From: Planctomycetota bacterium
GTDB taxonomy: Bacteria; Planctomycetota; UBA8742; UBA2392
NCBI GenBank assembly: GCA_015075515.1
Contig: JABTUE010000002.1
Location: forward strand, 597,478 to 661,477
DNA: 64,000 bases
Direction: 5' to 3'
In this document: piece by piece, positions 1 through 17,131 of the stretch
Position numbering within the stretch: the first letter of the stretch is position 1
Layout of the letters: each line of letters starts with the position of its first letter
Program-made: the position numbers and the translations under genes
The notes under the pieces: generated by a model
Told to the model about the DNA's origin: nothing
The model's input: only the letters and a program-made list of their open reading frames with translations
Database searches by the model: none

Positions 1-675
1 CCGCGCAACCAGCCAGTGGTCTTCAGCGCTGCGTACATCGGGGTAGCGCACCCCTGATCGTGTGCGAAGGAGAAGATTGCACGAGGGCAATTCGTTCTCT
101 GCCGTTCCTTCAGCCATCTGCTCAAGCCTCTTGACAACGAACTGAGCGTCAAGCAGTTCGGAAGTGGCGTTGTTCGTTTGGGCCGTAAGGCGGCCATCCC
201 GAAACAGGCGGTTGCCCCCGAGGACGAACATAGCGTCATGGCGCTCACCCGCTTCAATCGCTGCGCCTAGCGATCTTGAGGTCGTGAAGCAATCGTCAGC
301 GTCAAGGCGAGCCACCCAAAGGGCTGACGGCAGGTGGGTATCAACGTAGTCAAGGATCGCATTACGAGATCGGGCAGCAGAGCCGCAGTTTGCTTGCAGG
401 CGGACTAGAGCAAGTTGGTTCAACAGGTCAGCATTGGTGACATCCCAGTTGTCTGTCGAACCGTCATCCAGAATAACGACGGCGACACGGCGATGACCAA
501 CGTCCTGGGCCACTACGCTCAGCAAACACCGTCGGAGTAAAGTACTTTGGTTGCGCAGGGCCACACCGACCACGACATCTGGTGGTGCCGCAAGTATTTG
601 TTCGGACGTAGCAATTACCCGCAATCCCTTTCGGGCCAGTACGCCACCTCCACGAATCGAGGCGAAGAGCGTCAT
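1..675 (-). CDS. Family 2 glycosyltransferase, C-terminus beyond window
   Basis: The frame is open from an ATG at 675 down to the left edge (225 codons), so the gene is partial. The translation shows the GT-A fold pattern of family 2 glycosyltransferases: a strand reading VVVGVALRNQSTLLRRCL, then VVILDDGSTD, a conserved RNA(I)LDY segment, and the metal-binding region ARLDADD. A late SAEDHW segment fits the acceptor-side acidic motif. It would transfer a sugar from a nucleotide-sugar donor, probably in the cytoplasm, to a glycan or lipid carrier. Its ATG overlaps the stop of the radical SAM gene by four bases, so it is the third gene of a translationally coupled leftward operon. Donor and acceptor cannot be read from the sequence. 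Confidence 0.8.
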   Translation of the reverse strand, partial: MTLFASIRGGGVLARKGLRVIATSEQILAAPPDVVVGVALRNQSTLLRRCLLSVVAQDVGHRRVAVVILDDGSTDNWDVTNADLLNQLALVRLQANCGSAARSRNAILDYVDTHLPSALWVARLDADDCFTTSRSLGAAIEAGERHDAMFVLGGNRLFRDGRLTAQTNNATSELLDAQFVVKRLEQMAEGTAENELPSCNLLLRTRSGVRYPDVRSAEDHWLVAR

Positions 676-2448: not shown

Positions 2449-2593
2449 GGCGATTCGCGATAACGCGGCCCGCAGACAGGATACCTACCAGTATCGGATA
2501 GGGAAGAACGTCACACTCGCCCTACTTCTACGAAGGAGTAGTGTCGGCCCGGTCTTGGTTGCAGGGGCGCGGCCTCAAGTTTTTCCGGTTTGA

Positions 2594-2603
2594 GGTAAAA
2601 TCC
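2594..2603 (+). promoter_or_regulatory. GGTAAAATCC element, possible -10 region of first ankyrin gene
   Basis: The ten bases GGTAAAATCC lie 26 bases before the ATG of the first ankyrin gene, and TAAAAT resembles a -10 box. The identical ten bases recur 26 bases before the second ankyrin gene. No convincing -35 box is seen at 16-18 bases upstream, so promoter function is tentative. Confidence 0.35.
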
Positions 2604-2629
2604 AGCGGAGCTGCGGCTGTGTACTGGGT

Positions 2630-3034
2630 ATGGAAAATCCCATCCCGTACAAAGCGAGTCTGCAGCGGGGCGAGCTGACTGCCCCGCAACCCAGCCAGCA
2701 CTGGTCTGACCTGCCTTGGTTGGCTGACCAGCGTAACCTCCGGGCCATTCTCCGGTTGCTGAAGCGCGGTGAGTGCCCGAACGCCCAGGACCACTACGGC
2801 AGAACTGCCCTGCACTTGGCGATCTTGCGCGATGAAGTGGAGATCGTCCGTGTCCTGCTACAGCACGGTGCGTCGGTGCACATTGAAGATCGCAAGGGAC
2901 GTTCGCCTTGGGACATTGCCTTGAGCTGCAGCCCTGACGACATGATCCTCAAGATGTTGTTGGAGGGCTTTCTCAGCCCGTCAGACCGGAAAGAATGGGT
3001 TGAGTTGGGCTTGAGCAAGATCTTCCCCTCATGA
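2630..3034 (+). CDS. Small ankyrin-repeat protein
   Basis: This 134-residue protein carries about two ankyrin repeats in its centre. The signature DHYGRTALHLAILRDEVEIV is followed by RVLLQHGASVHIEDRKGRSP and a partial third repeat ending LKMLLEGFL. Ankyrin repeats bind other proteins, so it probably acts as a cytoplasmic adaptor. No signal peptide or enzymatic domain is seen. It starts an island segment of plus-strand genes and is followed by a second ankyrin protein with the same upstream decanucleotide. The two proteins are only modestly similar outside the repeats. The start is the first ATG after the shared element; the ribosome binding site is weak. Confidence 0.7.
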   Translation: MENPIPYKASLQRGELTAPQPSQHWSDLPWLADQRNLRAILRLLKRGECPNAQDHYGRTALHLAILRDEVEIVRVLLQHGASVHIEDRKGRSPWDIALSCSPDDMILKMLLEGFLSPSDRKEWVELGLSKIFPS

Positions 3035-3131
3035 TGGCGTTCGGCCAAGACCGGGCAGAACACGGGGCTCCTTCCCAAAGGCAAGTGCTACGTTCACGCG
3101 CATACATCAAATAAGCAAACTTTGAGATTTC

Positions 3132-3141
3132 GGTAAAATCC
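3132..3141 (+). promoter_or_regulatory. GGTAAAATCC element, possible -10 region of second ankyrin gene
   Basis: This is the second exact copy of GGTAAAATCC, 26 bases before the ATG at 3168 and at the same spacing as the copy before the first ankyrin gene. Conserved spacing suggests a shared promoter or duplicated upstream region. A -35 box is not obvious. Confidence 0.35.
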
Positions 3142-3167
3142 TCAAGGGCGGGCTTTGTCTACAACAC

Positions 3168-3575
3168 ATGTTCAGGTTCTCGTCGGACATGAGTTGCCGG
3201 ACGGCCCTCGTTGAGGTGCTGCGCAGTCTTGCCAAGTGGCATTGGCTGCCCGCCACCCACGCGCTGGCCCGCGAAGGCCAGGTTGCGGCGCTGAGACTCC
3301 TGCTGTCTGCAGGGTACCCGGCTCAGGCAACGGACGACGGCGGTTGGACATTGCTGCACATCGGTGCCTCGCAGGGCGATCCAAGGATCGTGGCGCTCGC
3401 GCGGGCCTTGGGTTGCAGCCCGGACTTCGCTGCGCGCGACGGCACCACTCCGGTGGACATCGCGCGAACCAAGTCATCTTCGCGTGTGTTGGCGGTGCTG
3501 GAGCGTCCAGCAGCGATGCCGCACACCGTCATGGCGGGCGCAGAAGGCGTCCGCGAACCCATGGAGGAAGCATGA
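3168..3575 (+). CDS. Small ankyrin-repeat-like protein
   Basis: This 135-residue protein has ankyrin-type helices: THALAREGQVAALRLLLSAG, then TDDGGWTLLHIGASQGDPRI, then a third unit RDGTTPVDIARTKSS. The repeats are more degenerate than in the upstream ankyrin protein. It is probably a protein-binding adaptor. Its TGA overlaps the ATG of the next gene (ATGA at 3572-3575), so it appears coupled to the DNA-metabolism-like cluster. An alternative start lies at 3189. No catalytic motif is present and its partner is unknown. Confidence 0.65.
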   Translation: MFRFSSDMSCRTALVEVLRSLAKWHWLPATHALAREGQVAALRLLLSAGYPAQATDDGGWTLLHIGASQGDPRIVALARALGCSPDFAARDGTTPVDIARTKSSSRVLAVLERPAAMPHTVMAGAEGVREPMEEA

Positions 3576-4120
3576 TCCGTATCAACGCCCATTACAGTCG
3601 CAAAGTACCGGGCGCTCAGGAGTTCTCGAGCGAACAGGCCGGTGCAAGTCTGGAAATCGAGGTGGCGGACGCTGCCGCGCCCCAAATTCGGCATCAGTTG
3701 CAGGAACTCTGGAACAGCCTGCGCCAGGCAGTGGACGCCGAGCTTGGTATCGCTGAACAACCTGCCCGGAACGCCGTATTCGGTAACGGCCAGCACCGGC
3801 TGACCGAACAGACTGCCGGCAACGGTCGGAACGGCAACGGGCTTGCTGCCCACTCCAACGACGCGCCGCGCACCGGTGATTGGAACGAGCGCGGACCGGT
3901 CCTGGACCTCCCCCCGTCCAACAGTGCCAATGGCGGCGACGAGCGCGCGACCCGCAAGCAGATCGGCTTTTTGCTCGCCAGTGCGCGGCGCACCCGGAAT
4001 CTCGACGCGGCTGCTCTCAAGTCGCTGATTCAGCGCGAATTCGGCTGCGGGCTCAACGACCTCTCCAAGCGCCAGGCTGGCGACCTGATTGACCGCTTCC
4101 AAGGACGCAAGTCGGCCTGA
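3572..4120 (+). CDS. Unknown protein with C-terminal helical domain typical of recombination-gene neighbours
   Basis: The ATG at 3572 overlaps the previous stop and follows a good GGAGGAAG ribosome binding site, giving 182 residues. Three zones are visible: an acidic, beta-like N-terminus (residues 1-50), a Gly/Asn-rich linker (about 68-125) that looks disordered, and a compact helical C-terminus beginning ATRKQIGFLLASARRTR and ending near GDLIDRF. Similar C-terminal tails (a kQ-x2-fLl start and a final a-x-x-lId-x-l) occur in some phage single-strand annealing and nuclease-associated proteins; this is from memory of family patterns, not a search. The next gene is an iron-sulfur nuclease, so a role in DNA recombination or processing is plausible. 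Confidence 0.6.
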   Translation: MIRINAHYSRKVPGAQEFSSEQAGASLEIEVADAAAPQIRHQLQELWNSLRQAVDAELGIAEQPARNAVFGNGQHRLTEQTAGNGRNGNGLAAHSNDAPRTGDWNERGPVLDLPPSNSANGGDERATRKQIGFLLASARRTRNLDAAALKSLIQREFGCGLNDLSKRQAGDLIDRFQGRKSA

Positions 4121-4139
4121 GGCCACGGAAAGGAACGCC

Positions 4140-4925
4140 ATGACGACCGACACCATGACATCCGTCAGCTACACGCGGCTGAGCACCTGGCAGGATTGTC
4201 CCAAGCGCTTCAAGTTCCGCTATGTGGACGAAGCGCCCGAAGACGGTACTGCCGTCAACCTCGTGTTTGGCACGGCTATACACGAGGCGGCAGAGGCCTT
4301 TCTGGAGTCTCTGGCCCAGACGCCCAAGGGCGACGATGAGATCATTGCCGTATTTGAACGCGCCTTCCGTGACTCCATCAAGTTCGCTGAAGAAAGCCAA
4401 AGCCCGCTCGATTGCGGCCCTGAAGAACTGGAAGCGCTGGTCGAGAAGGGCAAGGCGATGCTGCGGTGCTTCACGACCAAGGTAGATCGCAACGCCAAAG
4501 TAATCGGCACGGAACTCGCCTTTGACGTGGAAGTCCAGCCAGGCGTCACCCTCACCGGCTACCTCGACTGCCTTCTGATGACCGGCCTCAACCAGTTCAA
4601 GATTGTTGAACTAAAGACAGCCGCGCGCACTTATGGCGAGGACCGTCTGCGCTATGACCTCCAGCCCACCTGCTATCTGGCGGCGGCTCAGCGGTTGCTG
4701 CCTCCGGGCGCCAAGGTCGAGTTCGAGTACTGGTTGATGATGAAGACCAAGGAGCCCGACCTGAAGATCCTCCCGGCAGTTCGCAATGGTCAGGACCACG
4801 ACGAACTGCACCAGTTAATCCGCGATTACCTGAAGGCGGTAGGCGTTCAGGTGTTTCCCCGGCGACGCAGCTACCAGTGCGACGGGTGCGGCTACGCGCG
4901 GCTTTGCGCGGAGTCCAAGCAATGA
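4140..4925 (+). CDS. PD-(D/E)XK nuclease, Cas4/AddB-like with iron-sulfur cysteines
   Basis: Starting at the ATG at 4140 (after GGAAAGGAACGCC), the protein has 261 residues. It contains the RecB-family nuclease core: D143 in LTGYLDCLL, E157 and K159 in VELKTA, and Q175/Y179 in LQPTCYLAA. C20 at the N-terminus and C247, C250 and C256 at the C-terminus match the four-cysteine arrangement that holds a 4Fe-4S cluster in Cas4 and AddB. It should be a metal-dependent DNA exonuclease or end-processing nuclease. There is no CRISPR array or cas1/cas2 in the window, so Cas4 function in adaptation is not supported. Neighbours suggest a phage-like or island recombination module. A longer in-frame start at 4089 would overlap the upstream gene. 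Confidence 0.85.
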   Translation: MTTDTMTSVSYTRLSTWQDCPKRFKFRYVDEAPEDGTAVNLVFGTAIHEAAEAFLESLAQTPKGDDEIIAVFERAFRDSIKFAEESQSPLDCGPEELEALVEKGKAMLRCFTTKVDRNAKVIGTELAFDVEVQPGVTLTGYLDCLLMTGLNQFKIVELKTAARTYGEDRLRYDLQPTCYLAAAQRLLPPGAKVEFEYWLMMKTKEPDLKILPAVRNGQDHDELHQLIRDYLKAVGVQVFPRRRSYQCDGCGYARLCAESKQ

Positions 4926-5248
4926 AGGCCCGCATTGTCGCCACCAGCACGGTGATCGCTGATCGCCTGCGCCATGCTTGCGTGATTGCGGGTCTGGAGC
5001 ACGAAGTGGCCTCTTTGGACGCCCCGGGTGCCTTTGACGTGCTGATCGTGGACCAGGATGCCCGGCCACCCCAGCCAGAAGACCTTCGGGCCAAGTATCC
5101 CGATGCGTCCCTGTTTGTGCTGACTCGCTCGCGAACACCGCTGTACTTGAAGGAACTCGTCCAACGCGGGGCCACGGCCACGCTGGGTTACTCCATGTGT
5201 GCCCGAACCGTGGCGGAGGTGCTCGTCGGGGCGCTGGTCAAAGGCTGA
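4922..5248 (+). CDS. Receiver-like single-domain protein
   Basis: The ATG at 4922 overlaps the nuclease stop (ATGA), giving 108 residues. The alternating beta/alpha pattern resembles a CheY-type receiver: FDVLIVDQDARP at the third strand, LFVLTRSRT at the fourth, and LKELVQRGATATLGYS at the fifth. The N-terminal acidic pair normally used for magnesium is missing, so it may be a pseudo-receiver that is not phosphorylated. No output domain is attached. Coupling to the nuclease suggests it regulates or assembles with that protein. It is followed directly by a terminator. Confidence 0.55.
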   Translation: MKARIVATSTVIADRLRHACVIAGLEHEVASLDAPGAFDVLIVDQDARPPQPEDLRAKYPDASLFVLTRSRTPLYLKELVQRGATATLGYSMCARTVAEVLVGALVKG

Positions 5249-5274
5249 ACAACAACCAATTCGCTCAAAGCTAC

Positions 5275-5297
5275 GGCCGCATGGTGCGGCCCTTTTT
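5275..5297 (+). terminator. Rho-independent terminator after the nuclease cluster
   Basis: The stem GGCCGCA/TGCGGCC (7 bp, perfect, loop TGG) is followed by C and five T. It lies 26 bases after the receiver-like gene and just before the DUF932 ribosome binding site, so the DUF932 gene may be attenuated or separately transcribed. Confidence 0.85.
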
Positions 5298-5315
5298 CGT
5301 TGATGGAGGTGAAAC

Positions 5316-6311
5316 ATGGTCCAACTTGTGGAAACACCAGCCAGTTCGCTGCGCTCGCAGCCCGATTCCGGTCTTGCCCAGCTTGAGGAAGTCTTGGAGC
5401 AAAGGGCGGCGTCATACCATGACGTGAAGGCATCCAAGGACGAACTTCTCGTGGACTCGAACACCGGGGCGCTCATCCACCGCCCCACCGGGCGCGAGTT
5501 TACCCTCAGCGAGCTTGCCCTCGCCCAGCTTGGCGGCAAGTTGAGGGTTCCCACCGCGTACCTGTTGCGCTGCCCGCCCGACCTGCTGGCGACCAACGTC
5601 AACCACTGGCTTGGTGTCGCTGGTGCCCGCAACTTCCTGCTGCGGTGCGACGGCAACCGGGTGCGCGCAGTCCTGTCCGAGCGTTACGCGCCCGTGGACA
5701 ACCTGCCGTTGGTGCGCTCGCTTCGCCGCACGTTGGGCAATGCCCCTTTGCGCTTTGAACTGACCGAGTACGAACTCAACGTGCAGTTCGTTTCCGGCCG
5801 AGTCCGTGTCGCGGCACCCGGCGACACGTTGAACCCTGGCGTCGCCATCCGTAACAGCGAGGTAGGTCTGGCCAAGGTCGAGATTCGCGGCCTGATCTAC
5901 CGTGCCATCTGCCTCAACGGCCTCATCCTCGGGGGCAGCCAGGACACCTGGGCTCGGCGTCACATCGGCCATGTTGACCTTGCGGCCAGTGTCCAGCGCG
6001 CCATCGACACCATCCAGGCCAAGGCGGATACGAGCATCGAGGGCTTTTCTCGCACGATGCACATCCGTGTGCCCGACATGGCGCGCGTGCTGGCGCGCAT
6101 CATCGAGCGTTACGCGCTCAGCGAAGAAGAAGGCGCGGCACTTCGCATGGCCCACGAACAGGAGCCAGGTGATTCCCTGTATCACGCGATCAACGCCCTG
6201 ACTCGTGCGGGCAACTCGGCCCACCTTCCCCTGTCGTCCCGCCAGAGGCTGCAGGAATTGGGCGGAAGCATGCTGGAGAGCGCCGAGAACGGCAACCGCT
6301 GGCTTAACTAG
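5316..6311 (+). CDS. DUF932-family (phage/plasmid-like) protein
   Basis: This 331-residue protein starts after an excellent GGAGGTGAAAC ribosome binding site. The order of blocks is that of DUF932 proteins of phages and plasmids: FTLSELALAQLGGKLRVP near residues 60-80, NFLLRCDGNRVRAVLSERY near 107-125, a central NSEVGLAKVEIRGLIYR block, and CLNGLILG near 198. DUF932 proteins are cytoplasmic and functionally uncharacterised; they often sit near recombination and DNA-modification genes on mobile elements. Hairpin terminators flank it on both sides, so it is probably monocistronic. It supports the view that this region is a mobile island. Confidence 0.8.
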   Translation: MVQLVETPASSLRSQPDSGLAQLEEVLEQRAASYHDVKASKDELLVDSNTGALIHRPTGREFTLSELALAQLGGKLRVPTAYLLRCPPDLLATNVNHWLGVAGARNFLLRCDGNRVRAVLSERYAPVDNLPLVRSLRRTLGNAPLRFELTEYELNVQFVSGRVRVAAPGDTLNPGVAIRNSEVGLAKVEIRGLIYRAICLNGLILGGSQDTWARRHIGHVDLAASVQRAIDTIQAKADTSIEGFSRTMHIRVPDMARVLARIIERYALSEEEGAALRMAHEQEPGDSLYHAINALTRAGNSAHLPLSSRQRLQELGGSMLESAENGNRWLN

Positions 6312-6353
6312 CCGGCCACGAACCCTCCGGGCGGGGCGGTCCCGCCCACACAG

Positions 6354-6391
6354 GAACGACGACGGCAAGCATGCCTCGTCGTTCTTGCTGT
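6354..6391 (+). terminator. Terminator-like hairpin after DUF932 gene
   Basis: The arms GAACGACGA (6354-6362) and TCGTCGTTC (6376-6384) pair perfectly around a 13-base loop and are followed by TTGCTGTTT. A GC-rich hairpin with arms GGGCGG and CCGCCC lies just before it (6329-6347). Confidence 0.65.
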
Positions 6392-6774
6392 TTCAGGAGC
6401 GTCAAAACGGCTAGGCTTGCAGGTGTGCCACATCGGCCACAATCGTCGCGGCGGGGACGGTCAAGGTCTGGTTAGGTCAGCCAAAGGCCCCTTCCTCAAA
6501 CCACAAGATTCTGGAGTCCCGTGGGCCAGAACCGTCAAAAAACACGCTATTTCCCCGCCGCGCCAACTTGGGGGGTGCGGGTGCCGACGAGGCTTGCCAA
6601 GCCCCTGGCTCCAAAGGCCGCCAGGATTCGGCATGAGATTCTGCCTAAGTTGCCTTGGCCAGCGCTCGCCCCGAGGCAGGCTTTGGGGGGACCGCATTGG
6701 GCTGTGCCACTTCCGCTGCTTAGTCGGAACGATAAAGTACTTGGCTTCAGGCATTGATCCGACCGAGGGCGGGC
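6392..6774. other. Apparently non-coding spacer before the restriction cassette
   Basis: About 380 bases lie between the DUF932 terminator and the helicase start. Both strands have open frames here (for example 6417-6812 plus and 6461-6787 minus), but their products are low-complexity Arg/Gly/Pro-rich with no recognisable pattern. The segment AAAGTACTTGG at 6734 recurs in related form inside the first helicase codons. It presumably holds the cassette promoter, but no clear -35/-10 pair is visible. Confidence 0.5.
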
Positions 6775-9687
6775 ATGGGGACATCATACCACGTCAAGTA
6801 CTTTGCCCATGATCTCGCTCGCCAGAGTGCCGAGTCCGGCGTGGAACGTCTGGCATCGTCGCTCTTCAACGCCTCAATCGAACTCACCCCGCACCAGATT
6901 GACGCTGCGCTCTTTGCCCTGCGCTCGCCCTTGGCGGCCGGGGCGCTGCTTGCCGACGAAGTGGGCCTGGGCAAGACGATTGAGGCAGGGTTAGTACTTT
7001 GCCAATGCTGGGCCGAGCGCAAACGCAGGTTGCTCGTTCTTTGCCCGGCCTCGCTGCGCACCCAATGGCAAGACGAGCTGCTAACAAAGTTCAACCTGCC
7101 ATCCAGGATCGTCGATGCTTTCGCTTACCGGCAGGCGGCCAAAGACGGTCAAGGCATCCCCTTCCAGTGCGACGAAGTCGTCATCAGCTCTTTCAACTTT
7201 GCCGCCGCCAAGCACGAGGACCTTCTGAAGGTCACGTGGGATCTGATTGTTTTTGACGAGGCCCACAAGCTGAGGAACTGCTACCGCGAGAGCAACGTCA
7301 TGGGCCAACGACTGCTCTCTGCAACGCGCGGCTTCCGCAAGCTGCTCCTTACCGCCACGCCATTGCAGAACAGCCTGCTGGAGCTGTTTGGTATTGGTCA
7401 GTTGCTCGACGAGTACATCTTCGGCGACAAGACGGCATTTCAGCAGGCGTTCATGAATGGCGGTGGGGACCCTGATGCGCTTCGCAATCGCCTGGCGTCT
7501 TTCTGCAAGCGAACGCTGCGCAAGGACGTTCAGGAATATGTGCCGTTCACCGAGCGTCATGCGCTGCTGGAGTCATTCGCCCCCAACGCCGACGAGCAGA
7601 ACCTCTATGAGCGCATGTCGGCCTACCTCCAGCGTGAAGACACTTACGCCATTCCCAAGCGGCTTCAGCACTTGCAAGTGCTCGGGGGAAGAAAGCGGCT
7701 GGCGTCAAGCACAGCAGCCATTGTCGGAACCCTTGACGCGCTCATTACGCGGCTTAAGCGCATGGCCCAGGGGCTTCCCGCACCAACTGACGACCTTGAG
7801 CGCCTGGTAGAGGAACTCATCGACGACGAAGCGCTGGACGACGACGAGGCTGAGGAACTTCTGGTTGCCGACTCCAGTCAGGGCACATCCCACAGTGCCG
7901 AGATTGACCGCCTAAAGCTGAACGCGGAAATCGCCGAACTCGAAGAACTGGCCCGGCTGGCGCGCTCCATCCGCGTAGATTCCAAGGCCAAGGCCCTTCT
8001 CAAAGGGCTCGAAAAGGGCTTTCAGCAAATGCAGAAGGTTGGCGCGCAGCGCAAAGCCCTGATCTTTACCGAGTCGCGCCGCACACAGGACTATCTCAAG
8101 AACTTCCTCGAACAGAACGGCTACTTGGGCCAGGTGGCCCTGTTCAACGGCAGCAACAGCACACCCGAGGCCCGCGCCGCATACGACGCCTACGTCCATG
8201 CGCAACGAGGGGCGGGCAAGCCCCTGACTTCTCGTGAGGTAGACATGCGTGCGGCACTGGTTGAAGATTTCCGCAACCAGCGCGAGATCATGATCGCCAC
8301 CGAAGCAGGCGCTGAGGGCATCAACCTCCAGTTCTGCTCACTGGTCGTGAACTACGACATGCCCTGGAACCCCCAACGTGTCGAGCAGCGCATTGGACGC
8401 TGCCACCGCTACGGGCAGAAACACGACGTCGTGGTCCTCAACTTCCTCAACAGCAAGAATCTGGCTGACAAGCGCGTTTATGAATTGCTCGAAGCCAAGT
8501 TCAGGCTGTTTAACGGCATCTTCGGCAGTTCCGACGAAGTCCTTGGCAGCCTTGAGTCCGGCGTTGACTTCGAGCGCCGCATCCTGGCCATCTACCAGAA
8601 GTGCCGTACCCCCCAGGAAATTGAAGCGGCCTTCGCGGAGCTTCGTTCCGGCCTTGACGAACAGATCAACGAGCGGATGCAGAAGACCCGCGACCAATTG
8701 CTGGCCCACTTCGATGAAGAGGTTCACGAGCGCCTCAAGGTGCAGTTGGACGACGCCCGCCAGCTCATCGGCAAAATGGAACGCCGTTTCTGGATCGTTA
8801 CGCGCCATGCGCTTGCCCAGCGCGCCGAGTTCCAAGACGAAGCGCTTTGTTTCAAGCTTCATGACCCGCCAATGCCCCCGGCCAAGTCGCCTCCCGGCCT
8901 TTACCGCCTGATTTCAAAGCTCGATCAGAAACCCGAGGACGGCGTCGTTTATCGCCTGAACCACCCCTTGGGCGAGTGGGCGGTTGAACAGGGCAAGCAG
9001 GCCGCATCGCCCCCTGCGGAGATCACCTTCCACGTCACCCAAAACCCGACGCGCATTGCCGTGGTCGAGCAACTGAAAGGCAAGGGCGGCTGGCTGCGCC
9101 TTGACCTGCTGACGCTCAAGGGCGCTCCACGCGAAGGTGCACAGCGTCAGAGTGCTTATCGCGAAGATCACCTGCTTTTCACCGGCATCGACGATTCCGG
9201 CGCGGCCTTGCCCAACGACGTTTTGTCACGGCTCTTTGATTGCCAGCGCGCCGAGGTTCGGCCCGTAAGCGAAGTGCCCGATGACGTTGAGCAGCGTTTG
9301 GCCAAAGAAGCCGAGCAGCACGCGGCAGGCACCATAGACGAATCCAGCAATCGTTCGCTGAAGTTCATGCACGAGCGCTTTGACATGGTGGACCGCTGGG
9401 CCGACGATCAGGAAAAGGGCCTTGAGCGCCGTATAGACCAGAAAAAATCCGAGTTGCGCCAGGCCTTTGCCAACAGCAACAAGGCCAAGAACCTGGCCGA
9501 GAAAGAGCAGTTTGAATCGGAGAAAGAAAAACTGCGCCGGGAACTCCAGAAGCTGCGCAGGCAGCGTGAGGAGGCCTTTGACGCGATCATGGAAAAGTCC
9601 GAGCAGATCAAGAGCAAGCTGCGCGACGCCGTGAAGCAAACCACGGATCGCTCGCATCTGTTCACCATCCGCTGGCAAGTTCGTTAG
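6775..9687 (+). CDS. SNF2-family helicase/ATPase, DrmD/HepA-like
   Basis: The ATG at 6775 follows GAGGGCGGGC and gives 970 residues; a TTG at 6754 is also in frame. The first RecA lobe has Walker A DEVGLGKT (61-68) and DEAH (161-164); the second has EAGAEGINLQ and motif VI VEQRIGRCHRYGQ (536-548), the SNF2/RapA signature. The C-terminal third (about 870-960) is a long Lys/Glu-rich coiled coil. SNF2 ATPases translocate on double-stranded DNA. Similar helicases occur in DISARM (DrmD) and near restriction genes. Here it is first in a tightly packed operon with a small protein, a Mod methyltransferase and a Res nuclease, which suggests it moves along or remodels DNA for a restriction or defence complex. 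Confidence 0.9.
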   Translation: MGTSYHVKYFAHDLARQSAESGVERLASSLFNASIELTPHQIDAALFALRSPLAAGALLADEVGLGKTIEAGLVLCQCWAERKRRLLVLCPASLRTQWQDELLTKFNLPSRIVDAFAYRQAAKDGQGIPFQCDEVVISSFNFAAAKHEDLLKVTWDLIVFDEAHKLRNCYRESNVMGQRLLSATRGFRKLLLTATPLQNSLLELFGIGQLLDEYIFGDKTAFQQAFMNGGGDPDALRNRLASFCKRTLRKDVQEYVPFTERHALLESFAPNADEQNLYERMSAYLQREDTYAIPKRLQHLQVLGGRKRLASSTAAIVGTLDALITRLKRMAQGLPAPTDDLERLVEELIDDEALDDDEAEELLVADSSQGTSHSAEIDRLKLNAEIAELEELARLARSIRVDSKAKALLKGLEKGFQQMQKVGAQRKALIFTESRRTQDYLKNFLEQNGYLGQVALFNGSNSTPEARAAYDAYVHAQRGAGKPLTSREVDMRAALVEDFRNQREIMIATEAGAEGINLQFCSLVVNYDMPWNPQRVEQRIGRCHRYGQKHDVVVLNFLNSKNLADKRVYELLEAKFRLFNGIFGSSDEVLGSLESGVDFERRILAIYQKCRTPQEIEAAFAELRSGLDEQINERMQKTRDQLLAHFDEEVHERLKVQLDDARQLIGKMERRFWIVTRHALAQRAEFQDEALCFKLHDPPMPPAKSPPGLYRLISKLDQKPEDGVVYRLNHPLGEWAVEQGKQAASPPAEITFHVTQNPTRIAVVEQLKGKGGWLRLDLLTLKGAPREGAQRQSAYREDHLLFTGIDDSGAALPNDVLSRLFDCQRAEVRPVSEVPDDVEQRLAKEAEQHAAGTIDESSNRSLKFMHERFDMVDRWADDQEKGLERRIDQKKSELRQAFANSNKAKNLAEKEQFESEKEKLRRELQKLRRQREEAFDAIMEKSEQIKSKLRDAVKQTTDRSHLFTIRWQVR

Positions 9688-9696
9688 GATGGCCCC

Positions 9697-10143
9697 ATGG
9701 CCCAACCACGCAAACACAAGTTCAAGTTTAAGTTCTTCTTCCTTGGCATAGAGCAGGCAAAGACATCCGACAATCCCATCGACCGGCCTGACTTTGTTCG
9801 CGAGACCGCGAGTCGGTACCTCAGGGTGCTGGCGGCAGCAGGCGGCGGCGCGTTCCCCGACAGGTCACTGGATGGAGTTACGTTCAAGTTGATCAAGGCG
9901 ACCATAGGCAATACGCCCGAAGCCATGAACACTCTGAAAGCCGAGCTTCGCGAGTGCAGCGAAGAACTGGACAAGCTGCTGAAGCCGCCGTTGATCAACG
10001 AGAAAGAATTGCGGAAACGGGCCGAGGAGTTCGTGGACAACTACCTGTTCCTCGACCCTCCAGGCGAAGGCAAGCTCTTCGCCGATGACGTGGTCGCCAA
10101 GGTGCGCGAGGCCGAAAAGGACAGCCACGACGAGGACAAGTAG
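9697..10143 (+). CDS. Small unknown protein of the SNF2-Mod-Res cassette
   Basis: This is a 148-residue protein, nine bases after the helicase and three before the methyltransferase, so clearly part of the operon. It has a basic/aromatic N-terminus (RKHKFKFKFFFLG), a central helical segment, and an acidic C-terminus rich in Glu, Lys and Asp. There is no signal peptide, membrane segment, zinc site or nuclease motif. I do not recognise a family. Position and size suggest a subunit bridging helicase and methyltransferase, or a control or inhibitor protein, but this is inference. Confidence 0.75.
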   Translation: MAQPRKHKFKFKFFFLGIEQAKTSDNPIDRPDFVRETASRYLRVLAAAGGGAFPDRSLDGVTFKLIKATIGNTPEAMNTLKAELRECSEELDKLLKPPLINEKELRKRAEEFVDNYLFLDPPGEGKLFADDVVAKVREAEKDSHDEDK

Positions 10144-10146
10144 CCC

Positions 10147-13100
10147 ATGCCTGAAACCAAGTACCAGCGCCTGATCCGCTTGCTCAAGGAAATGTTCCAG
10201 CTTGGTGATGCCGCCGAACTGGATTTCGGCATTTATCGCATCATGCACGCGCGCAAGGCCGAGATTGAGAAGTTCCTCGATCAGGAGCTTTTCCAAAAGC
10301 ACGTCAAAGAGGCTTTGGCGGGCGAAGCCGGCGGCAAGCGCGCCGAGCTTGAAGCGCAAATCGCCGAACTTGAGAAGACGCTCAAGGCCGCAGGAGTTGA
10401 TCCCAAAACAGCCCCCAAGTACCAGGAGCTTGTAGCCCAGCGTGAAGCCGCGCCGGATCAAGGCGCGCTTGAAGATCAGGTTTACAGCCACTTGTTGACG
10501 TTCTTTGGCCGCTACTACCAGGAAGGCGACTTCATCAGCCAGCGGCGCTACGGCGAAAATGCCTACGCCATCCCCTACAATGGCGAAGAGGTCAAGCTGT
10601 ATTGGGCCAACTACGACCAGTACTACATCAAATCCAGCGAAGATTTAAAACACTACGCCTTTCTTGTCGGCCCTGAGAACGCCCGCAAGCGTGTGCGTTT
10701 CAAACTGGTCGCGGCCTCCACCGAGCGTGACAACGCCAAAGAGCAAAAGGGCAAAGAGCGCTACCACATTTTCGCGCGCGGCGAGAATTCAATTGCAGAA
10801 GAAAAGACCGAGGCCGGCACAGAACTGGTCATTCCCTTTGAGTACCGGGTGGTCACGCGCGAAGAGGTTGCCGAGCACCAGCCGGACATCGGCGCGCGGC
10901 CCAACATGCGCGACGAGCTTTCCGCCCTCAGCGCCAGATGGATTCTTGAAAGCGCCAGGTTGCCCCAGGCGTGGAAGCCAATGCTGGAAGCCGCCCATAG
11001 CAGAGACGGCGAGGCTACGGGCAAGAGCGTGCTTGAACACAATGTGCTTCGCTTCATGAGGAAAGCTCACTTCGATTACTTCATCCACAAGGATTTAGGC
11101 GGGTTCTTTCGGCGTGAGTTGGACTGGTACATCAAGCATGAGCTGCTCAAGCTGGAGGACATTCTTGATGGCAAGCAGACGCCCGAACAATTGAGCACGC
11201 GCCACTTCGCCAAGCTGCGCGTCCTGCGGGCGATTGCCGAAAAGCTGATAGACTTCCTCGCGCAGATCGAGAACTTCCAGAAGAAGCTGTGGCTTAAGAA
11301 AAAGTTTGTGCTGGAGACGCACTACTGCGTCACGCTCGACCGTATTCCCGAGCGGTTGTACCCCGTAGTCGCGTCAAACGAGGGACAAAGGCTGGAGTGG
11401 GAGCGATGGTTCGCGCTGGAACGCATTGAAGGCTACAAAGGGACATTGACGCCTGATTTCCTCAAGGCCAACAAGACCTTGCCCGTCAATACCGCTCACT
11501 TCCCCCGGGCATTTCGGGATGAGTTAGTGGCTGGCCTTTCCGGACTGGCGGAAAACACCAACGGACTTTTGGTGCGCAGCGACAATTTTCAGGCGCTGAG
11601 AGCCTTGCAGCCCGCCTACACGGATCGTGTGCGCTGCGTCTACATCGATCCGCCTTACAACACAGACGTAAGCGCCATTCCCTACAAGAATAACTACCGC
11701 CATTCTTCCTTCGCGTCACTCATCCACGACCGTATGGAGGCTTTGCGCCCAATACTCTCGAAGCAAGGCGTGTTGTTTGTATCCATTGACAAGAACGAGC
11801 GCCTCATGGTGCAGGCTGCGCTGGACGCAGCATTTGGACCGGAAAACAAGGTGGAGGAACTGATTTGGGTCCAGAACACAAACGACAGTCGCTCTCCGAC
11901 GTATTCCGTTAACCACGAGTTCGTGGAAGTATACGCCAAAGACCGACCGACAACCGAGGCCAACCACCGTACGTTCCGCGAACCGAAGCCGGGCTACGCC
12001 GAAGTGATGGAGTTGGTTCAAAGGCTCAACCCCGGGTTTCCGCCCATTGCGCAGGTCGAGCAGGAATTACGAGCGCTCTACAAGGCACACGTGAGCGAAT
12101 ACCGCCGAATGATTGAGGAGCAAGGCCTAGATTGGGAAGAAGAGAAGCGAAACAACCCTTGGAATGGGGTTTATCAGTACAAGTTTGCGGAGTATCGGAC
12201 TGCGGATGGGAAGCTCGTAAGAGAAGCCGAAGCCAAGCAGCTCAACGCCATGATTTGGGTTTATCGCGAAAGCGACTGGACCATCATGTCTGCCGAAGAC
12301 AAGCAATCGGACACGATTAATGACCCAAAGAGCCCGAACTACCGCTTTTATCGACCGCTTCACCCCATCACCAAGAAACCCGTTGAGATGCCTTCACGGG
12401 GGTGGAAGGGTACGGAACGAATTGATCCAGAACATCCTGATCGGAATAGCTGGGAATCGTTGCTCGCGGACCACCTTATCGCGTTCGGGCCGGACGAAAC
12501 CAAGGTCCCCCAGCAGAAGCGCTTTCTACACAACGTCGAAACCAATGTCTGTAAGAGCGTCTTCGCGGATTACTCTGACGGCGAGAAAGAGACAACATCG
12601 CTCTTTGGTCGGGCTGGCGTGTTCCTTGCGCCTAAACACACTAACTTCGTGCGCCGTTTCTTACGTCAAGTGGTTATGCCCGGTGACACAGTGCTCGACT
12701 GCTTTGGCGGCTCCGGCAGTACCGGACATGCGGTCATTCGTGCGAATCGCGAAGAGGGCCTGAAGTTGAAGTTCGTCTTGGTTGAGGTCAACGAGTACTT
12801 CAACACAGTGCTCATGCCGCGCATTCTGAAGGGTGCCTATGCATCGGCTTGGGAAGCCGGCGCTCCCAAAGAGCGTGATGGGTTAAGCCAGATTCTGAAG
12901 GTCGTTCGCTTGGAGTCCTACGAGGATGCCTGCGACAACATCTTTCTCAAGCGGGGCGAGGCTCAGCAAAAGGCCTTTGACAAATTGCCCGAGGCCGAGC
13001 GGGAAAAGTACCGGCTCCATTACATGCTCAATGTCGAAAGCCGAGGCAGCGCCAGCCTGCTCAACATCCAGAAGTTCGAGCGCCCCTTTGAGTACACGCT

Positions 13101-13488
13101 GCGCGTCACCCGTGACGACGTAACCCGTGAGCAGCCCGTTGACCTCGTTGAAACGTTCAATTGGCTGCTTGGCCTTCGGGCGGACACTATCCGCTTGTCC
13201 AAGGATTCCACGTTCAAAGCCGCCGATCACGGCATCCTCGAAGTCACGGGCAAAGACCCACAAGGCAACCGCTGCCTCGTCCTCTGGCGCAACGTAGATG
13301 AAGTGCCCGACGACAAGCTCATCAAATGGTTCGAGAAGAACCGCTACAAGGTCAAGGACTTCGAGTGGGATTTGATCTACGTCAATGGCGATAACACGCT
13401 CGAAAACCTGAAACGCGACGACCAGACTTGGACTGTGCGGCTGACCGAACAGGAATTCCATCGCCTCATGTTCGAAGGCACTGAGTAG
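10147..13488 (+). CDS. Type III-like DNA methyltransferase (Mod), long N-terminal extension
   Basis: This 1113-residue protein has the beta-class amino-methyltransferase order: catalytic motif IV DPPY at 501-504 (in YIDPPYNTD), a long target-recognition region, then SAM-binding motif I FGGSGSTGHAV near 853-863. It should methylate adenine N6 or cytosine N4. Typical type III Mod proteins are about 600-700 residues; here about 450 residues precede the catalytic domain, starting with a charged helical stretch. It is three bases after the small cassette gene and two before the Res gene. It would mark host DNA and supply sequence recognition for the nuclease. The recognition site is unknown. Confidence 0.9.
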   Translation: MPETKYQRLIRLLKEMFQLGDAAELDFGIYRIMHARKAEIEKFLDQELFQKHVKEALAGEAGGKRAELEAQIAELEKTLKAAGVDPKTAPKYQELVAQREAAPDQGALEDQVYSHLLTFFGRYYQEGDFISQRRYGENAYAIPYNGEEVKLYWANYDQYYIKSSEDLKHYAFLVGPENARKRVRFKLVAASTERDNAKEQKGKERYHIFARGENSIAEEKTEAGTELVIPFEYRVVTREEVAEHQPDIGARPNMRDELSALSARWILESARLPQAWKPMLEAAHSRDGEATGKSVLEHNVLRFMRKAHFDYFIHKDLGGFFRRELDWYIKHELLKLEDILDGKQTPEQLSTRHFAKLRVLRAIAEKLIDFLAQIENFQKKLWLKKKFVLETHYCVTLDRIPERLYPVVASNEGQRLEWERWFALERIEGYKGTLTPDFLKANKTLPVNTAHFPRAFRDELVAGLSGLAENTNGLLVRSDNFQALRALQPAYTDRVRCVYIDPPYNTDVSAIPYKNNYRHSSFASLIHDRMEALRPILSKQGVLFVSIDKNERLMVQAALDAAFGPENKVEELIWVQNTNDSRSPTYSVNHEFVEVYAKDRPTTEANHRTFREPKPGYAEVMELVQRLNPGFPPIAQVEQELRALYKAHVSEYRRMIEEQGLDWEEEKRNNPWNGVYQYKFAEYRTADGKLVREAEAKQLNAMIWVYRESDWTIMSAEDKQSDTINDPKSPNYRFYRPLHPITKKPVEMPSRGWKGTERIDPEHPDRNSWESLLADHLIAFGPDETKVPQQKRFLHNVETNVCKSVFADYSDGEKETTSLFGRAGVFLAPKHTNFVRRFLRQVVMPGDTVLDCFGGSGSTGHAVIRANREEGLKLKFVLVEVNEYFNTVLMPRILKGAYASAWEAGAPKERDGLSQILKVVRLESYEDACDNIFLKRGEAQQKAFDKLPEAEREKYRLHYMLNVESRGSASLLNIQKFERPFEYTLRVTRDDVTREQPVDLVETFNWLLGLRADTIRLSKDSTFKAADHGILEVTGKDPQGNRCLVLWRNVDEVPDDKLIKWFEKNRYKVKDFEWDLIYVNGDNTLENLKRDDQTWTVRLTEQEFHRLMFEGTE

Positions 13489-13490
13489 GC

Positions 13491-16400
13491 ATGGCGCGCA
13501 AATCAAAGTCCGACACCCCAAAGGTCACGCGCAGGCTGCGCCAGCGCCTCGTGCTCAATCGCTGGGCGCTGAACATCCTGGGCGCACCCTTGGATGAAAA
13601 GCACCCGCTTGAGCGCATGCGCGGCCTGCTTGGAGGCGACGAACATCGCGGCTTTGTTGAAGGCCACACCAGATTCTGCCGCGCCCTGCAAAGCACGCTC
13701 GACATCGGCTGGCTTCTGGGACTGACCAGGGACCAGCTTGATGCCTACGACGGCAACATTGTCGAAATCACGCGCAAGCTGTTTCCGCCCGAGAAAGACC
13801 GCGAAAACTTCGAGTGGACCTGGTTCCAGTACCTGTGCCTGCTGCTGACCGAGATTTACCTCGACCGTTACTTTGGCGACAAGCGGGCGCTCTGTGCCGC
13901 GCTGAATGAGACGCGCGAGGAGTTCAACCGCACATGGGAAGACGACGTTCCGGCCTTTGAAATCAGCGACTTGAACAAGCTCGCGTTCCAGAACGCCACA
14001 GGCAGCGGCAAGACGCACCTGATGCACGCCAACATCTTGCAATTCCGCCACTACGCCAAGCGCGCGGGATTGCTCGGGAAGATCAAGAGCACCATCCTGC
14101 TCACACCCAGTTCCGGGCTTTCGCAGCAGCACGTAGAAAAGTTTCCCGATCACCTGTTTGCGGCCGAGCAATTCCAGAAGGACCACCTGCCGGTGTTCGC
14201 GGCGGGCAAGATTCAGGTGACCGTGCTGGACTACCACGACTTCGCCAAGCAGGGACGTGACGGGCAGACCAAGGAAGGGCCGAATACCGTTCACCCCGAC
14301 CAGTTCGAGCGTTGCAACCTTGTGCTGGTTGACGAAGGCCACCGTGGGGCCAAGGGCGGCGAAACCGGCCAGTGGAAATCGCGCCGCGACGAATTGAGCG
14401 AAGAAGGCTTCTCTTTTGAATATTCCGCCACGTTCAGCCAGGCCATTGACGGCTCGGCGGACAACGCGCTCAAGAACGAGTACGCAAAAAGCATCCTCTT
14501 CGATTACAGCTATGGCGAGTTCTACAAGGACGGCTACGGCAAGGAATTCCGCATCCTGAACGTGGAAAGCCGCGCCGGAGAAGCACCCAAGAAGAAGGGC
14601 AAGTCCAAGCAGATCGACGAAAGCGAGTTTCCCTATCTGGTGGGCGCGCTGCTGGCGTTTTACCAGCAGGTGCGTTTCTTCGACGAACACCGCGCCAAGC
14701 TGGTGCCGTTCAACATTGAGCGGCCATTGCTGGTGCTCGTGGGCGCGAGCGTGACGGGCGGCGACAGCCTTTCTGAAGGCGAACTTTCGGACGTGCAGGA
14801 ATTGCTTGCCTTCTTCCGCGACGTGCTGACCAAGAAAGACGAACTGACGCGGCTTATTCAGCAGTTCATGGGCAATGAGGTCGTAGTAGCGTCGAAGGAT
14901 GGCGTGAACGCTTTCGAGGGCACGTTTGACTGGCTGCGAACCAAGCACGACACGCCGGAACAGCTCTACGACGACCTGAAGCGGCGCGTGTTTGGCTCGA
15001 CGGAGAACACGTTCAAGCTCACCTACGTGACCGCGAGCGGCGAGATACGGCTTTCCGTGGGCGCGGCTGAAAAGCCTTTCGGCATCATCAACGTGGGCAG
15101 CGAAGGTGCGCGCAAGGTAGCCGAGACTTGCGAGGAAAGGCTGAAGCTGACGGTAGAACGCGACCAGACTGGCACAGAGGCGCTGTTTCCGAAGATCAAC
15201 AAGCTGGAACACGTTCAGGTTCTGATTGGCTCGCGCAAGTTCACCGAAGGCTGGGATTCGTGGCGCGTGAGCACCATGGGTTTGCTCAACCTCGGCAAAG
15301 GCGAAGGAACCCAGGTTATCCAGTTGTTCGGGCGCGGCGTGCGCCTCAAGGGCCAGCGCATTCGCGACTCGCAGGGCAACGAGAAGGGTTTCAGCCTCAA
15401 GCGCAGCAGCCGCTTCAACGGTCAAGCCAAGCCGCCGGCACACGTGCAAGTCGCGGAAACACTCAACGTGTTCGGCGTTCACGCAAGCTACATGGCCACG
15501 TTTAGAGAAATGCTCCAGAACGAGGGCTTGGACGTGACGCGCAAGCGCACGTGGGAATTGCCGGTAATCGAAGTGTTCCGCGACAAGGGCGTATACGAGA
15601 AGCTCAAGATTCCGGTCGTTCCCAAAGGCGAGCGCGGCTTTAGGGATGCCGTGAGGATCCCGCTGCTGGCGGAGTACCAATCGCAGCGAAACAGGCTGGG
15701 CGAGATTGAACTGAATTGGTTCCCGCAGGTCGAAACGACGACCAGCAAGGGCGTTCGGCCCGACACCGACGCTGCCCATGCACCCGACAAGACCCGCATT
15801 CCCGATGAAGCGCTGGCGTTCCTCGATTGGGACAAGCTCTATTTCGGCGTGCAACGCCTGAAGTACGAGGTAGGCCACAACATTAAGGTGACGCCTGGCG
15901 ACGTGCAGGCCGTGCTTTCAGACGCCGGTTGGTACAGGCTACTGCTGCCCAAGCAGGATCACGAGTTCCGCTTTGACCGGCTTGGCATGTGGCAGGAAAT
16001 CGCAGCGCAGTTGCTTGCCAAGCTCTTCCGCAAGCTCTACGACGACGCCAAGGCCCGTTACGACGCCAAAAACCGCAAGCTCGTGCCCTTGAAGGAGGCC
16101 ATTGCCGAAGGGGGCGAGTACGAAGGCATGTTCCCGACGTGGCTGATTTCGATGTCAGAGGAGGCGGCGGAACAGCAAGGCGAAGAGAATCTAAAAATGC
16201 TGGAGGCGCTCATCGGAGCAGTGAACGATGGCGACCTGAACAAGTTCAAGCTGCCGAAGTTCCTGGAAGAGGCGCTGAATGAGCGCCACCTGTACCGGCC
16301 ACTGCTGGTAGGCAAGGCGGGCAGCATCACCATCGCGCCCGTTGCGCTGAATGACCACGAGAAGCGGTTGGTGCTAGACGTGGCCAAGGAGTGTGGAGCC

Positions 16401-16826
16401 AGCGGGTTGCTGGCCAAGCACGAAGTCTACCTGCTGCGCAACGGCTCGCGGGGCAAAGGCATCGGGTTTGCGGAGGCCGGAAACTTCTACCCCGACTTCC
16501 TGCTCTGGATCGTGCTCAAGGACCGGCAGCACATCGTCTTTCTGGACCCGCACGGTATGCACCACGAGGGCTTGGCCAGTTCCAAGGTGGCGTTCCACAA
16601 GGACATCAAGGCCATCGAACGGGACTTGGTGGCCAAGGCCAAAGAAAACGTGCACCTGCACTCGTTCCTGCTTTCAACGACCGAAGCGCGAGCCAACGAA
16701 CCCGACTGGATGCGCCCGATGAATGACGATGAGTTGCATTCTCGCGGCGTGGTCAGGATGTACGCGACCGACTACTTGAAGCGTGTTGTAGGCACTGTCG
16801 TCAGCACAGAGCAAGTCGCTTCCTAG
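13491..16826 (+). CDS. Type III-like restriction helicase-endonuclease (Res)
   Basis: This 1111-residue superfamily 2 protein has Walker A ATGSGKT at 169-175, DEGH at 281-284, EYSATF as the SAT-type motif III, EGWD at about 586, and motif VI QLFGRGVR at 611-618. The C-terminus has a PD-(D/E)XK-type segment: D1002 in FYPDFLLWI and a following HIVFLDPHG strand. The normal second acidic-x-Lys is degenerate, so cleavage activity needs confirmation. With the adjacent Mod it resembles a type III restriction enzyme, which translocates after recognising unmethylated sites. The upstream SNF2 ATPase is not part of a classical type III system. The gene ends the cassette. Confidence 0.88.
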   Translation: MARKSKSDTPKVTRRLRQRLVLNRWALNILGAPLDEKHPLERMRGLLGGDEHRGFVEGHTRFCRALQSTLDIGWLLGLTRDQLDAYDGNIVEITRKLFPPEKDRENFEWTWFQYLCLLLTEIYLDRYFGDKRALCAALNETREEFNRTWEDDVPAFEISDLNKLAFQNATGSGKTHLMHANILQFRHYAKRAGLLGKIKSTILLTPSSGLSQQHVEKFPDHLFAAEQFQKDHLPVFAAGKIQVTVLDYHDFAKQGRDGQTKEGPNTVHPDQFERCNLVLVDEGHRGAKGGETGQWKSRRDELSEEGFSFEYSATFSQAIDGSADNALKNEYAKSILFDYSYGEFYKDGYGKEFRILNVESRAGEAPKKKGKSKQIDESEFPYLVGALLAFYQQVRFFDEHRAKLVPFNIERPLLVLVGASVTGGDSLSEGELSDVQELLAFFRDVLTKKDELTRLIQQFMGNEVVVASKDGVNAFEGTFDWLRTKHDTPEQLYDDLKRRVFGSTENTFKLTYVTASGEIRLSVGAAEKPFGIINVGSEGARKVAETCEERLKLTVERDQTGTEALFPKINKLEHVQVLIGSRKFTEGWDSWRVSTMGLLNLGKGEGTQVIQLFGRGVRLKGQRIRDSQGNEKGFSLKRSSRFNGQAKPPAHVQVAETLNVFGVHASYMATFREMLQNEGLDVTRKRTWELPVIEVFRDKGVYEKLKIPVVPKGERGFRDAVRIPLLAEYQSQRNRLGEIELNWFPQVETTTSKGVRPDTDAAHAPDKTRIPDEALAFLDWDKLYFGVQRLKYEVGHNIKVTPGDVQAVLSDAGWYRLLLPKQDHEFRFDRLGMWQEIAAQLLAKLFRKLYDDAKARYDAKNRKLVPLKEAIAEGGEYEGMFPTWLISMSEEAAEQQGEENLKMLEALIGAVNDGDLNKFKLPKFLEEALNERHLYRPLLVGKAGSITIAPVALNDHEKRLVLDVAKECGASGLLAKHEVYLLRNGSRGKGIGFAEAGNFYPDFLLWIVLKDRQHIVFLDPHGMHHEGLASSKVAFHKDIKAIERDLVAKAKENVHLHSFLLSTTEARANEPDWMRPMNDDELHSRGVVRMYATDYLKRVVGTVVSTEQVAS

Positions 16827-16963
16827 CTTACGGCACACATAGTGGCCACGGTACGCACTTCGGGTGGACTATGCCGCTCGCATTTGAGTTGCAGACACCC
16901 TTGTTGAGGCCGTCAATGGCCCATGGAGGATTGGATCACGGCGACCGAAGTGCCCCGAAGAAT

Positions 16964-16984
16964 ATCGTGTACGGAATCGTGTAC
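16964..16984. repeat. Short direct repeat ATCGTGTAC x2
   Basis: ATCGTGTAC occurs at 16964-16972 and 16976-16984 with a 12-base period, in the spacer between the Res gene and the tRNA terminator. It might be a trace of an insertion junction; no function is assigned. Confidence 0.4.
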
Positions 16985-17007
16985 AACCGGGCAAAATGCC
17001 TTGTGTG

Positions 17008-17052
17008 TTAAAAAGCAAACCCGCCTTGGGGTTGGCCTCCAAGGCGGGTTTG
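17008..17052 (-). terminator. Terminator of the tRNA-Gly transcript
   Basis: A 14-bp perfect stem (17016-17029 with 17039-17052) has a 9-base loop and, on the minus strand, is followed by CTTTTT (A-tract 17010-17014 on plus). It lies five bases beyond the tRNA CCA end. The stem could also stop plus-strand transcripts from the Res gene. Confidence 0.9.
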
Positions 17053-17056
17053 GGGC

Positions 17057-17131
17057 TGGAGCGGGCGAAGGGGTTCGAACCCTCGACCACCTGCTTGGGA
17101 AGCAGGAGCTCTACCACTGAGCTACGCCCGC
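17057..17131 (-). tRNA. tRNA-Gly(CCC)
   Basis: Read on the minus strand, the sequence folds as a standard tRNA. The acceptor stem GCGGGCG pairs perfectly with CGCCCGC, there is a D-arm GTAGCTCAGTGGTAGAGC, an anticodon stem CCTGC/GCAGG with loop TTCCCAA, and a T-arm containing GGTTCGAACC. The anticodon is CCC, which reads the glycine codon GGG. The discriminator base is U and the CCA end is encoded (17057-17059). A strong terminator follows at once. Its 3' end points towards the accessory region on the left, the usual orientation when elements integrate into a tRNA 3' end. Confidence 0.97.

Follow-up and report, generated by a model that had tools for sequence, protein, structure and literature searches.

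The window analysed here is a stretch of 64,000 nucleotides from a bacterium of the Planctomycetota (assembly GCA_015075515.1, contig JABTUE010000002.1, positions 597,478 to 661,477 of the forward strand), and the subject of this study is a four-gene cassette at positions 6775-16826 on its plus strand. The genes encode an SNF2 ATPase, a protein of 148 amino acids (aa), a DNA methyltransferase (Mod) and a Res protein. They lie head to tail with gaps of 9, 3 and 2 bp, exactly as described in an earlier, sequence-only reading of the same DNA. Pfam gives SNF2 and helicase C-terminal domains for the first gene, nothing for the second, N6_N4_Mtase for the third and ResIII for the fourth, and the ATPase and methyltransferase motifs are all intact across the cassette. 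The features are collected in Table 1.

Table 1. Features of the cassette and of the adjoining integration site, in window positions.
Feature	Position	Strand	Remarks
SNF2 (RapA/DrmD-like) ATPase, third Type III component	6775..9687	+	970 aa
Orphan protein, accessory slot between SNF2 and Mod	9697..10143	+	148 aa
Mod, beta-class Type III-like DNA methyltransferase	10147..13488	+	1113 aa; conserved N-terminal ~470 residues
Mod target-recognition region, approximate (residues 560-830), exchanged between cassettes	11824..12636	+	
Res, SF2 motor and C-terminal PD-(D/E)XK-type nuclease (sequence motif)	13491..16826	+	1111 aa
Res nuclease motif YPDF (1000) ... DPHG (1019), lysine to histidine	16488..16556	+	
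tRNA-Gly (CCC), integration site of the element	17057..17131	-	
Right attachment site; exact copy at genome C2:583168-583214, the left end of the element, beyond the window	17057..17103	+	47 bp
Right part of the 31.4-kb integrative element (C2:583168-614580)	1..17103		

The motor motifs of the SNF2 protein (DEVGLGKT, DEAH and QRIGRCHRYGQ) are intact, and the ATPase motifs are invariant across 48 proteins. In an AlphaFold2 (AF2) model made from 48 relatives, with a mean predicted local distance difference test (pLDDT) score of 82, the C-terminal tail forms two long helices, residues 836-902 and 907-953, which fits the long coiled-coil tail that had been noticed from the sequence. The similarity to DrmD or HepA that had also been suggested was right. 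RapA is the closest fold to the model (Foldseek E 1.4e-23), and DrmD is the nearest profile, with 630.4 bits in PADLOC and 634.8 bits in NCBIfam, while the BrxHI/II models score the protein at only 238.6 bits. The DrmD match spans residues 29-665 only, and two curated NCBI cutoffs for DrmD are missed (634.8 against 950 and 286.2 against 610 bits). No endonuclease motif or domain was found in the protein, Pfam giving SNF2/helicase domains only. When it is compared with RapA/HepA of Escherichia coli, with which it shares the motor motifs, it differs in that the match begins past the N-terminal domain of RapA (at RapA residue 145), in having the two long C-terminal helices, and in its restriction operon context.

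Mod is of the beta class, with motif IV (DPPYNT, residue 501) preceding the S-adenosylmethionine (AdoMet) motif CFGGSGSTG (852) and a variable region, the target-recognition domain (TRD), between them. Its nearest PADLOC model is MTase_III (611 bits), and in a profile search the methyltransferase core matches Type III Mods of solved structure, Mbo45V and EcoP15I. Some 470 N-terminal residues come on top of this core and are well conserved within the family. The base modified is predicted to be N4-methylcytosine (m4C) or N6-methyladenine (m6A), as the DPPY motif fits either. Res is closest to the PADLOC model REase_III (474 bits) and has intact motor motifs (ATGSGKT, DEGH and QLFGRGVRLKG), and no relative in the PDB was found with the Res profile. 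The C-terminal part of Res carries a (Y/H)PDF-x15-(D/E)P(K/H)G motif that is conserved throughout the family, and a histidine replaces the lysine of PD-(D/E)XK in 12 of the 52 aligned proteins, namely the window Res and 11 of the other 51.

A gene order of this kind has been published. In a study that characterised six m4C Type III systems, Eco86II and BspHIV were found to have an additional helicase-like ATPase, non-homologous to Res, encoded 5' of mod, and over 500 genomes have such an ATPase gene in the neighbourhood of Type III genes (Murray et al., 2021; PMC8259958). It was further reported that Eco86II methylation proceeds without the ATPase, that ATPase peptides went undetected by mass spectrometry in a partly purified, DNA-cutting Eco86II fraction, and that cleavage was partial and took place ~25 bp from the site (PMC8259958). 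The Eco86II locus was found in E. coli NCTC86 (NZ_LR217818.1), where SNF2, Mod and Res have 963, 1040 and 1126 aa, respectively. Full-length BLASTP identities to the window proteins are 46% for SNF2, 33% for Mod and 34% for Res, and the TRDs are 14% identical. Since the architecture is the same and all three proteins are homologous over their full length, the window locus is placed in the Eco86II/BspHIV group; the low TRD identity leads one to expect a target other than that of Eco86II. The sequence-only reading had put the cassette forward as a hypothetical composite defence system outside classical type III and DISARM, and added that it might already be partly described; the second suggestion was correct, and novelty does not hold after the 2021 report. 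Its idea of SNF2 translocation joined to methylation-gated cleavage is still a hypothesis, given that the Eco86II ATPase proved dispensable for methylation and went undetected in the cutting preparation. The reading preferred here, with a probability of about 0.8, is that the cassette encodes a Type III restriction-modification system in three parts, like Eco86II and BspHIV, and forms one end of an integrative element in tRNA-Gly. It is supported by the architecture, the homology to Eco86II, the conservation of the unit and the co-divergence of its members, the invariant ATPase motifs of SNF2, the likeness of the Mod core to Type III Mods of solved structure, the exchange of TRDs, the mobile element and the RapA fold match.

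Conservation was assessed from both Mod and SNF2. A scan with a Mod alignment over one genome per species gave at least 583 relatives, and the best 80 loci were annotated together with plasmid and genome loci collected earlier; this Mod-centred set was selected by similarity to the window Mod. Where enough flanking sequence is available on both sides, Res is present at 65 of 65 Mod loci and SNF2 at 48 of 65. This SNF2 occurs in 31 of 294 genomes of the phylum, and 19 of 20 SNF2-centred planctomycete neighbourhoods have a beta-class Mod downstream: seven of class A, to which the window Mod belongs, eight of class B (~570-670 aa) and four of class C (~640-730 aa). The locus sets overlap slightly, two planctomycete loci being in both, and L111 and L112 are identical. 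On viral and prophage contigs, 36 of the 38 SNF2 genes with enough sequence are accompanied by Mod (18 B, 12 A and 6 C) and 32 by Res. One SNF2 family is in other words paired with three distinct Mod/Res lineages.

The three proteins have also diverged in step. In 52 complete cassettes the correlation between distance matrices is 0.61 for SNF2/Mod, 0.76 for SNF2/Res and 0.85 for Mod/Res, uncorrected for near-relatives, against a maximum of 0.27 in 2000 permutations. With between-phylum pairs only, the correlations are 0.59, 0.77 and 0.81, and because they stay this high, host phylogeny alone is insufficient to account for the co-divergence. SNF2 is the best conserved of the trio (mean identity 0.55 versus 0.46 and 0.47). 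Its presence mapped on the Mod tree requires 10 changes, and partner class on the SNF2 tree changes seven times, where the least possible is three and the shuffled mean 17.9. SNF2 thus appears to form a stable but exchangeable partnership with Mod/Res, and judging from these comparisons the SNF2-Mod-Res trio is a real unit, found across bacterial phyla and on mobile elements. The sequence-only reading had held that SNF2 belongs with Mod and Res, which is borne out, and had named as the opposite case an ordinary two-gene Type III system with an unrelated neighbouring helicase. Such a chance neighbourhood could account for the 17 of 65 Mod loci without SNF2 and for the methylation and in vitro cutting that take place without it, but it is contradicted by the association found in both search directions, by the co-divergence, also between phyla, and by the independent report in more than 500 genomes, and it must be regarded as very improbable.

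Of 5426 complete E. coli genomes, ~250 contain a relative of this SNF2, which in most cases is chromosomal. Cassettes were seen in E. coli chromosomes (L244, L245 and L246) and on E. coli and Salmonella plasmids (L025 and L167). In E. coli LS45 a small helix-turn-helix (HTH) gene upstream of a class B SNF2 (L245:13808-14008) carries the NCBI label MAD1 (methylation-associated defense system); small HTH genes also lie 5' of SNF2 in several plasmid loci, and none was seen in the window. The twentieth of the planctomycete SNF2 loci has a 1462-aa Eco57I/MmeI-type methylase after SNF2 and no Type III Mod (L166:5103-9488), and a Priestia plasmid has a UvrD helicase with a PD-(D/E)XK domain in the place of SNF2 before Mod-Res (L027:6013-8958).

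When it comes to the 148-aa open reading frame (ORF), the codon-position GC pattern is that of the other three cassette genes, and it is therefore probably coding. The protein has no match among the Pfam, PADLOC and NCBIfam profiles, and no convincing homologue was found in 392 genomes of the phylum, in the plasmid collection (tblastn) or in ~90 related loci (phmmer and tblastn). Beyond its own genome even the best matches are weak, at E 0.005-0.006, and either fall within an unrelated frame of 819 aa or run across stop codons. A structure predicted without an alignment is poor (pLDDT 53) and all-helical. In other cassettes the SNF2/Mod and Mod/Res gaps are filled by differing genes; 51 such slot proteins include ten AAA_21/AAA_15 ATPases, five Fic proteins, three each of DUF4276, YhcG/DUF1016 nucleases and GmrSD_N, and one PIN protein. 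AbiEi/AbiEii occupy the slot in the locus of the nearest relative of the window Mod (L035), and Abi, AIPR, VapC and AAA plus S8 peptidase genes do so in enterobacterial and Deinococcus loci. The cassette of E. coli LS45 has Abi and AIPR inserts, and that of E. coli C227-11, which adjoins tRNA-Phe and an integrase gene, has an AAA plus S8 peptidase insert. The slot genes may be back-up toxins; auxiliary effectors in a similar pattern are known for BREX (PMC12839542). Because it is absent elsewhere, the 148-aa protein would be cargo in the accessory slot and not a core subunit. A working subunit in this one locus, for instance an SNF2-Mod adaptor or an inhibitor that tunes Res, would agree with the flanking gaps of only 9 and 3 bp and with the coding-like codon positions. 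This is, however, quite unlikely given that ~90 related loci, 392 genomes and the plasmids gave no homologue and that unrelated genes occupy the same slot elsewhere. Conservation of the gene order in unrelated genomes, which the sequence-only reading had proposed as a check, accordingly holds for SNF2-Mod-Res and fails for the 148-aa gene, an orphan in a variable slot.

Mods of closely related cassettes differ mainly in the region expected to read the target. In L030, L095 and L103 the SNF2 proteins are 87-89% and the Res proteins 79-82% identical, and the Mods are alike on both sides of residues 560-830, where they are only 7-12% identical. Over all Mod pairs the identity of the TRD is uncorrelated with that of the backbone (r = -0.06), and the Mod of a Vibrio cassette (L036) is 61% identical to the window Mod in the TRD and 42% in the backbone. 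These patterns indicate that target specificity is swapped by TRD exchange between cassettes with SNF2 held constant. Exchange of TRDs is already known among Type III Mods (EcoPI/EcoP15I). In another cassette of the same family Mod is split by an insertion sequence (IS)-like DDE_3 transposase gene (L029:8613-9726).

An integrative element of 31.4 kb occupies tRNA-Gly(CCC), and the cassette is its terminal part, the last content before the tRNA. The 3' half of the tRNA gene, 47 bp, is repeated 31.4 kb away without a mismatch and in the same orientation, and a phage-integrase gene (Pfam PF00589) begins 82 bp inside the left end; the repeat and the integrase gene together define the left boundary. 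A genome of the same genus (G001) has the tRNA and the right flank and lacks the cassette there, and a clean empty site could not be delimited in it, the left flank not being found within the stretch examined. In a genome of another genus (G007) this tRNA is interrupted at the anticodon loop, next to a different integrase gene, with a class B SNF2-Mod-Res cassette a few kb farther inward. The element also carries a pair of ankyrin-repeat ORFs and an ORF resembling PD-(D/E)XK (PDDEXK_1) nucleases (window 2630-3572 and 4089-4925, plus strand). On the minus strand immediately beyond the left end (C2:578747-582208; L279:748-4209) lies the gene of a second SNF2 helicase, whose C-terminal domain is of the NO VEIN type; it may belong to another element in the same site. 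Just past the tRNA lies a Schlafen group 3 helicase gene (window 17695-19689, minus strand; PADLOC candidate PDC-S41, 900 bits), which is intact in G002 and G007 and a remnant in G001. The chromosome segregation protein SMC at window 46658-50239 on the plus strand (911 bits, mad3-like in PADLOC) is part of the ordinary chromosome past the element.

As a Type III system the locus would restrict unmodified DNA. Mod would recognise a short asymmetric site through its exchangeable TRD and methylate one strand, and on unmethylated invading DNA Mod-Res complexes would, by analogy with Type III enzymes, slide by means of the Res motor and cut where two of them meet. For the homologue Eco86II, site-specific methylation by Mod and partial cleavage by Mod/Res have been shown by others. 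In the cell, SNF2 would serve as an auxiliary translocase that works on the invading DNA too and strips off bound proteins or polymerases, and this clearing would let Mod-Res reach and cut sites on DNA under transcription or replication. Clearing the path for Mod-Res is tentatively regarded as the most likely role of SNF2, since a RapA-like motor that is dispensable in vitro yet co-inherited best fits a task not needed on purified plasmid DNA, such as freeing phage DNA of RNA polymerase or other proteins.

Some observations weigh against a tripartite Type III system. SNF2 is missing from 17 of 65 Mod loci, and together with the 10 changes on the Mod tree this suggests that Mod-Res can manage without it. 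A core role of SNF2 in cleavage is unlikely because the ATPase is not required for methylation and was undetected in the cutting Eco86II fraction. The nuclease lysine of the window Res is a histidine (DPHG). No report of phage defence by a Type III system containing SNF2 was found in the open-access literature; subscription journals or REBASE may hold further reports on such systems.

The main rival for the role of SNF2 is that of a second, separate effector, which would attack unmodified invading DNA or its transcription or replication, with the Mod mark shielding the host from both Res and SNF2. The same scheme has been proposed for helicase-methylase pairs such as those of DISARM and BREX-3, and the SNF2 relatives DrmD, BrxHII, DpdE and ArmA all adjoin DNA-modifying enzymes. 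Its being the most conserved of the trio, its three Mod/Res lineages of partners and the in vitro cutting by Eco86II without it point in the same direction. Set against this, SNF2 is nearly always found with Res and not with Mod alone, and it lacks a nuclease domain, which makes a separate effector a possible but doubtful alternative to the auxiliary translocase. A wider and rather speculative proposal, which at present seems unlikely, is that the RapA-like SNF2 generally enhances modification-gated immunity, or acts as its second effector, and is portable between systems, serving at least three Type III Mod/Res lineages and sharing one common mechanism with its relatives in DISARM, BREX-3, Dpd and ARMADA. 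In that case the operon would serve as a platform whose slots receive back-up toxins, set off by failed restriction, and the 148-aa orphan would be a new toxin of this sort.

Hundreds of Type III systems carry an SNF2 ATPase, including some of E. coli and some on plasmids from clinical Klebsiella and Salmonella, and defence catalogues score this protein as a stray DrmD-like helicase. The counts given above show joint selection of SNF2 with Mod and Res, in different phyla and with three Mod/Res lineages, in loci that gain abortive-infection-type genes between the core genes and have their target specificity swapped by TRD exchange while SNF2 stays constant.

Membership of DISARM, BREX-3 and Hma was considered and rejected: the nearest models are DrmD/BrxH, but SNF2 is below the curated DrmD cutoffs and the partner genes are absent. 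No drmA, drmB or drmC was identified in the cassette or in those flanking window ORFs that were scanned (not every window ORF was), and a search confined to the four-gene operon with Pfam, PADLOC and NCBIfam gave no brxC, pglZ or PglX-type methylase. The sequence-only reading was thus right in setting DISARM aside, and of the profile comparisons it had proposed, those with Type III models matched Mod and Res, while those with DISARM and BREX gave an SNF2 below the DrmD cutoffs and no partners in the operon. A described SNF2-methylase defence system such as DISARM or BREX that has lost its marker genes would explain why DrmD is the nearest profile in both PADLOC and NCBIfam; with both curated cutoffs missed, Mod and Res of Type III and an operon devoid of drmA/B/C, this is extremely improbable. 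The PADLOC model PDLC02572, named DrmA, matches SNF2 helicases and gives hits in 13 of 14 control genomes; it is therefore uninformative as a genome-wide test for DISARM, and calls resting on it may be wrong.

Among the defining traits of Type III enzymes is ATP-dependent cleavage at a distance of 25-27 bp from one of a pair of inverted sites. The window cassette resembles the classical systems EcoP15I and EcoPI in its adjacent Mod and Res and in the methyltransferase core matched in EcoP15I Mod, but differs in the conserved N-terminal ~470 residues of Mod, in a Res whose profile has no PDB relative and in the added SNF2. With class 1 DISARM it has in common a RapA-like SNF2 that adjoins a DNA methyltransferase; the operon is, however, without drmA/B/C/MI, its SNF2 scores under the DrmD cutoffs, and a Type III Mod and Res are found instead. 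The likeness to Eco86II and BspHIV extends to the order ATPase-Mod-Res and to a helicase-like ATPase, distinct from Res, 5' of mod-res, and with Eco86II also to a beta-class Mod with DPPY and an SF2 Res with a C-terminal PD-(D/E)XK-type motif. It differs from both in the 148-aa orphan between SNF2 and Mod, and from Eco86II in having DPHG where the Eco86II Res has DPKG. The window locus is thus a known architecture with one orphan cargo gene, a further planctomycete example on a mobile element.

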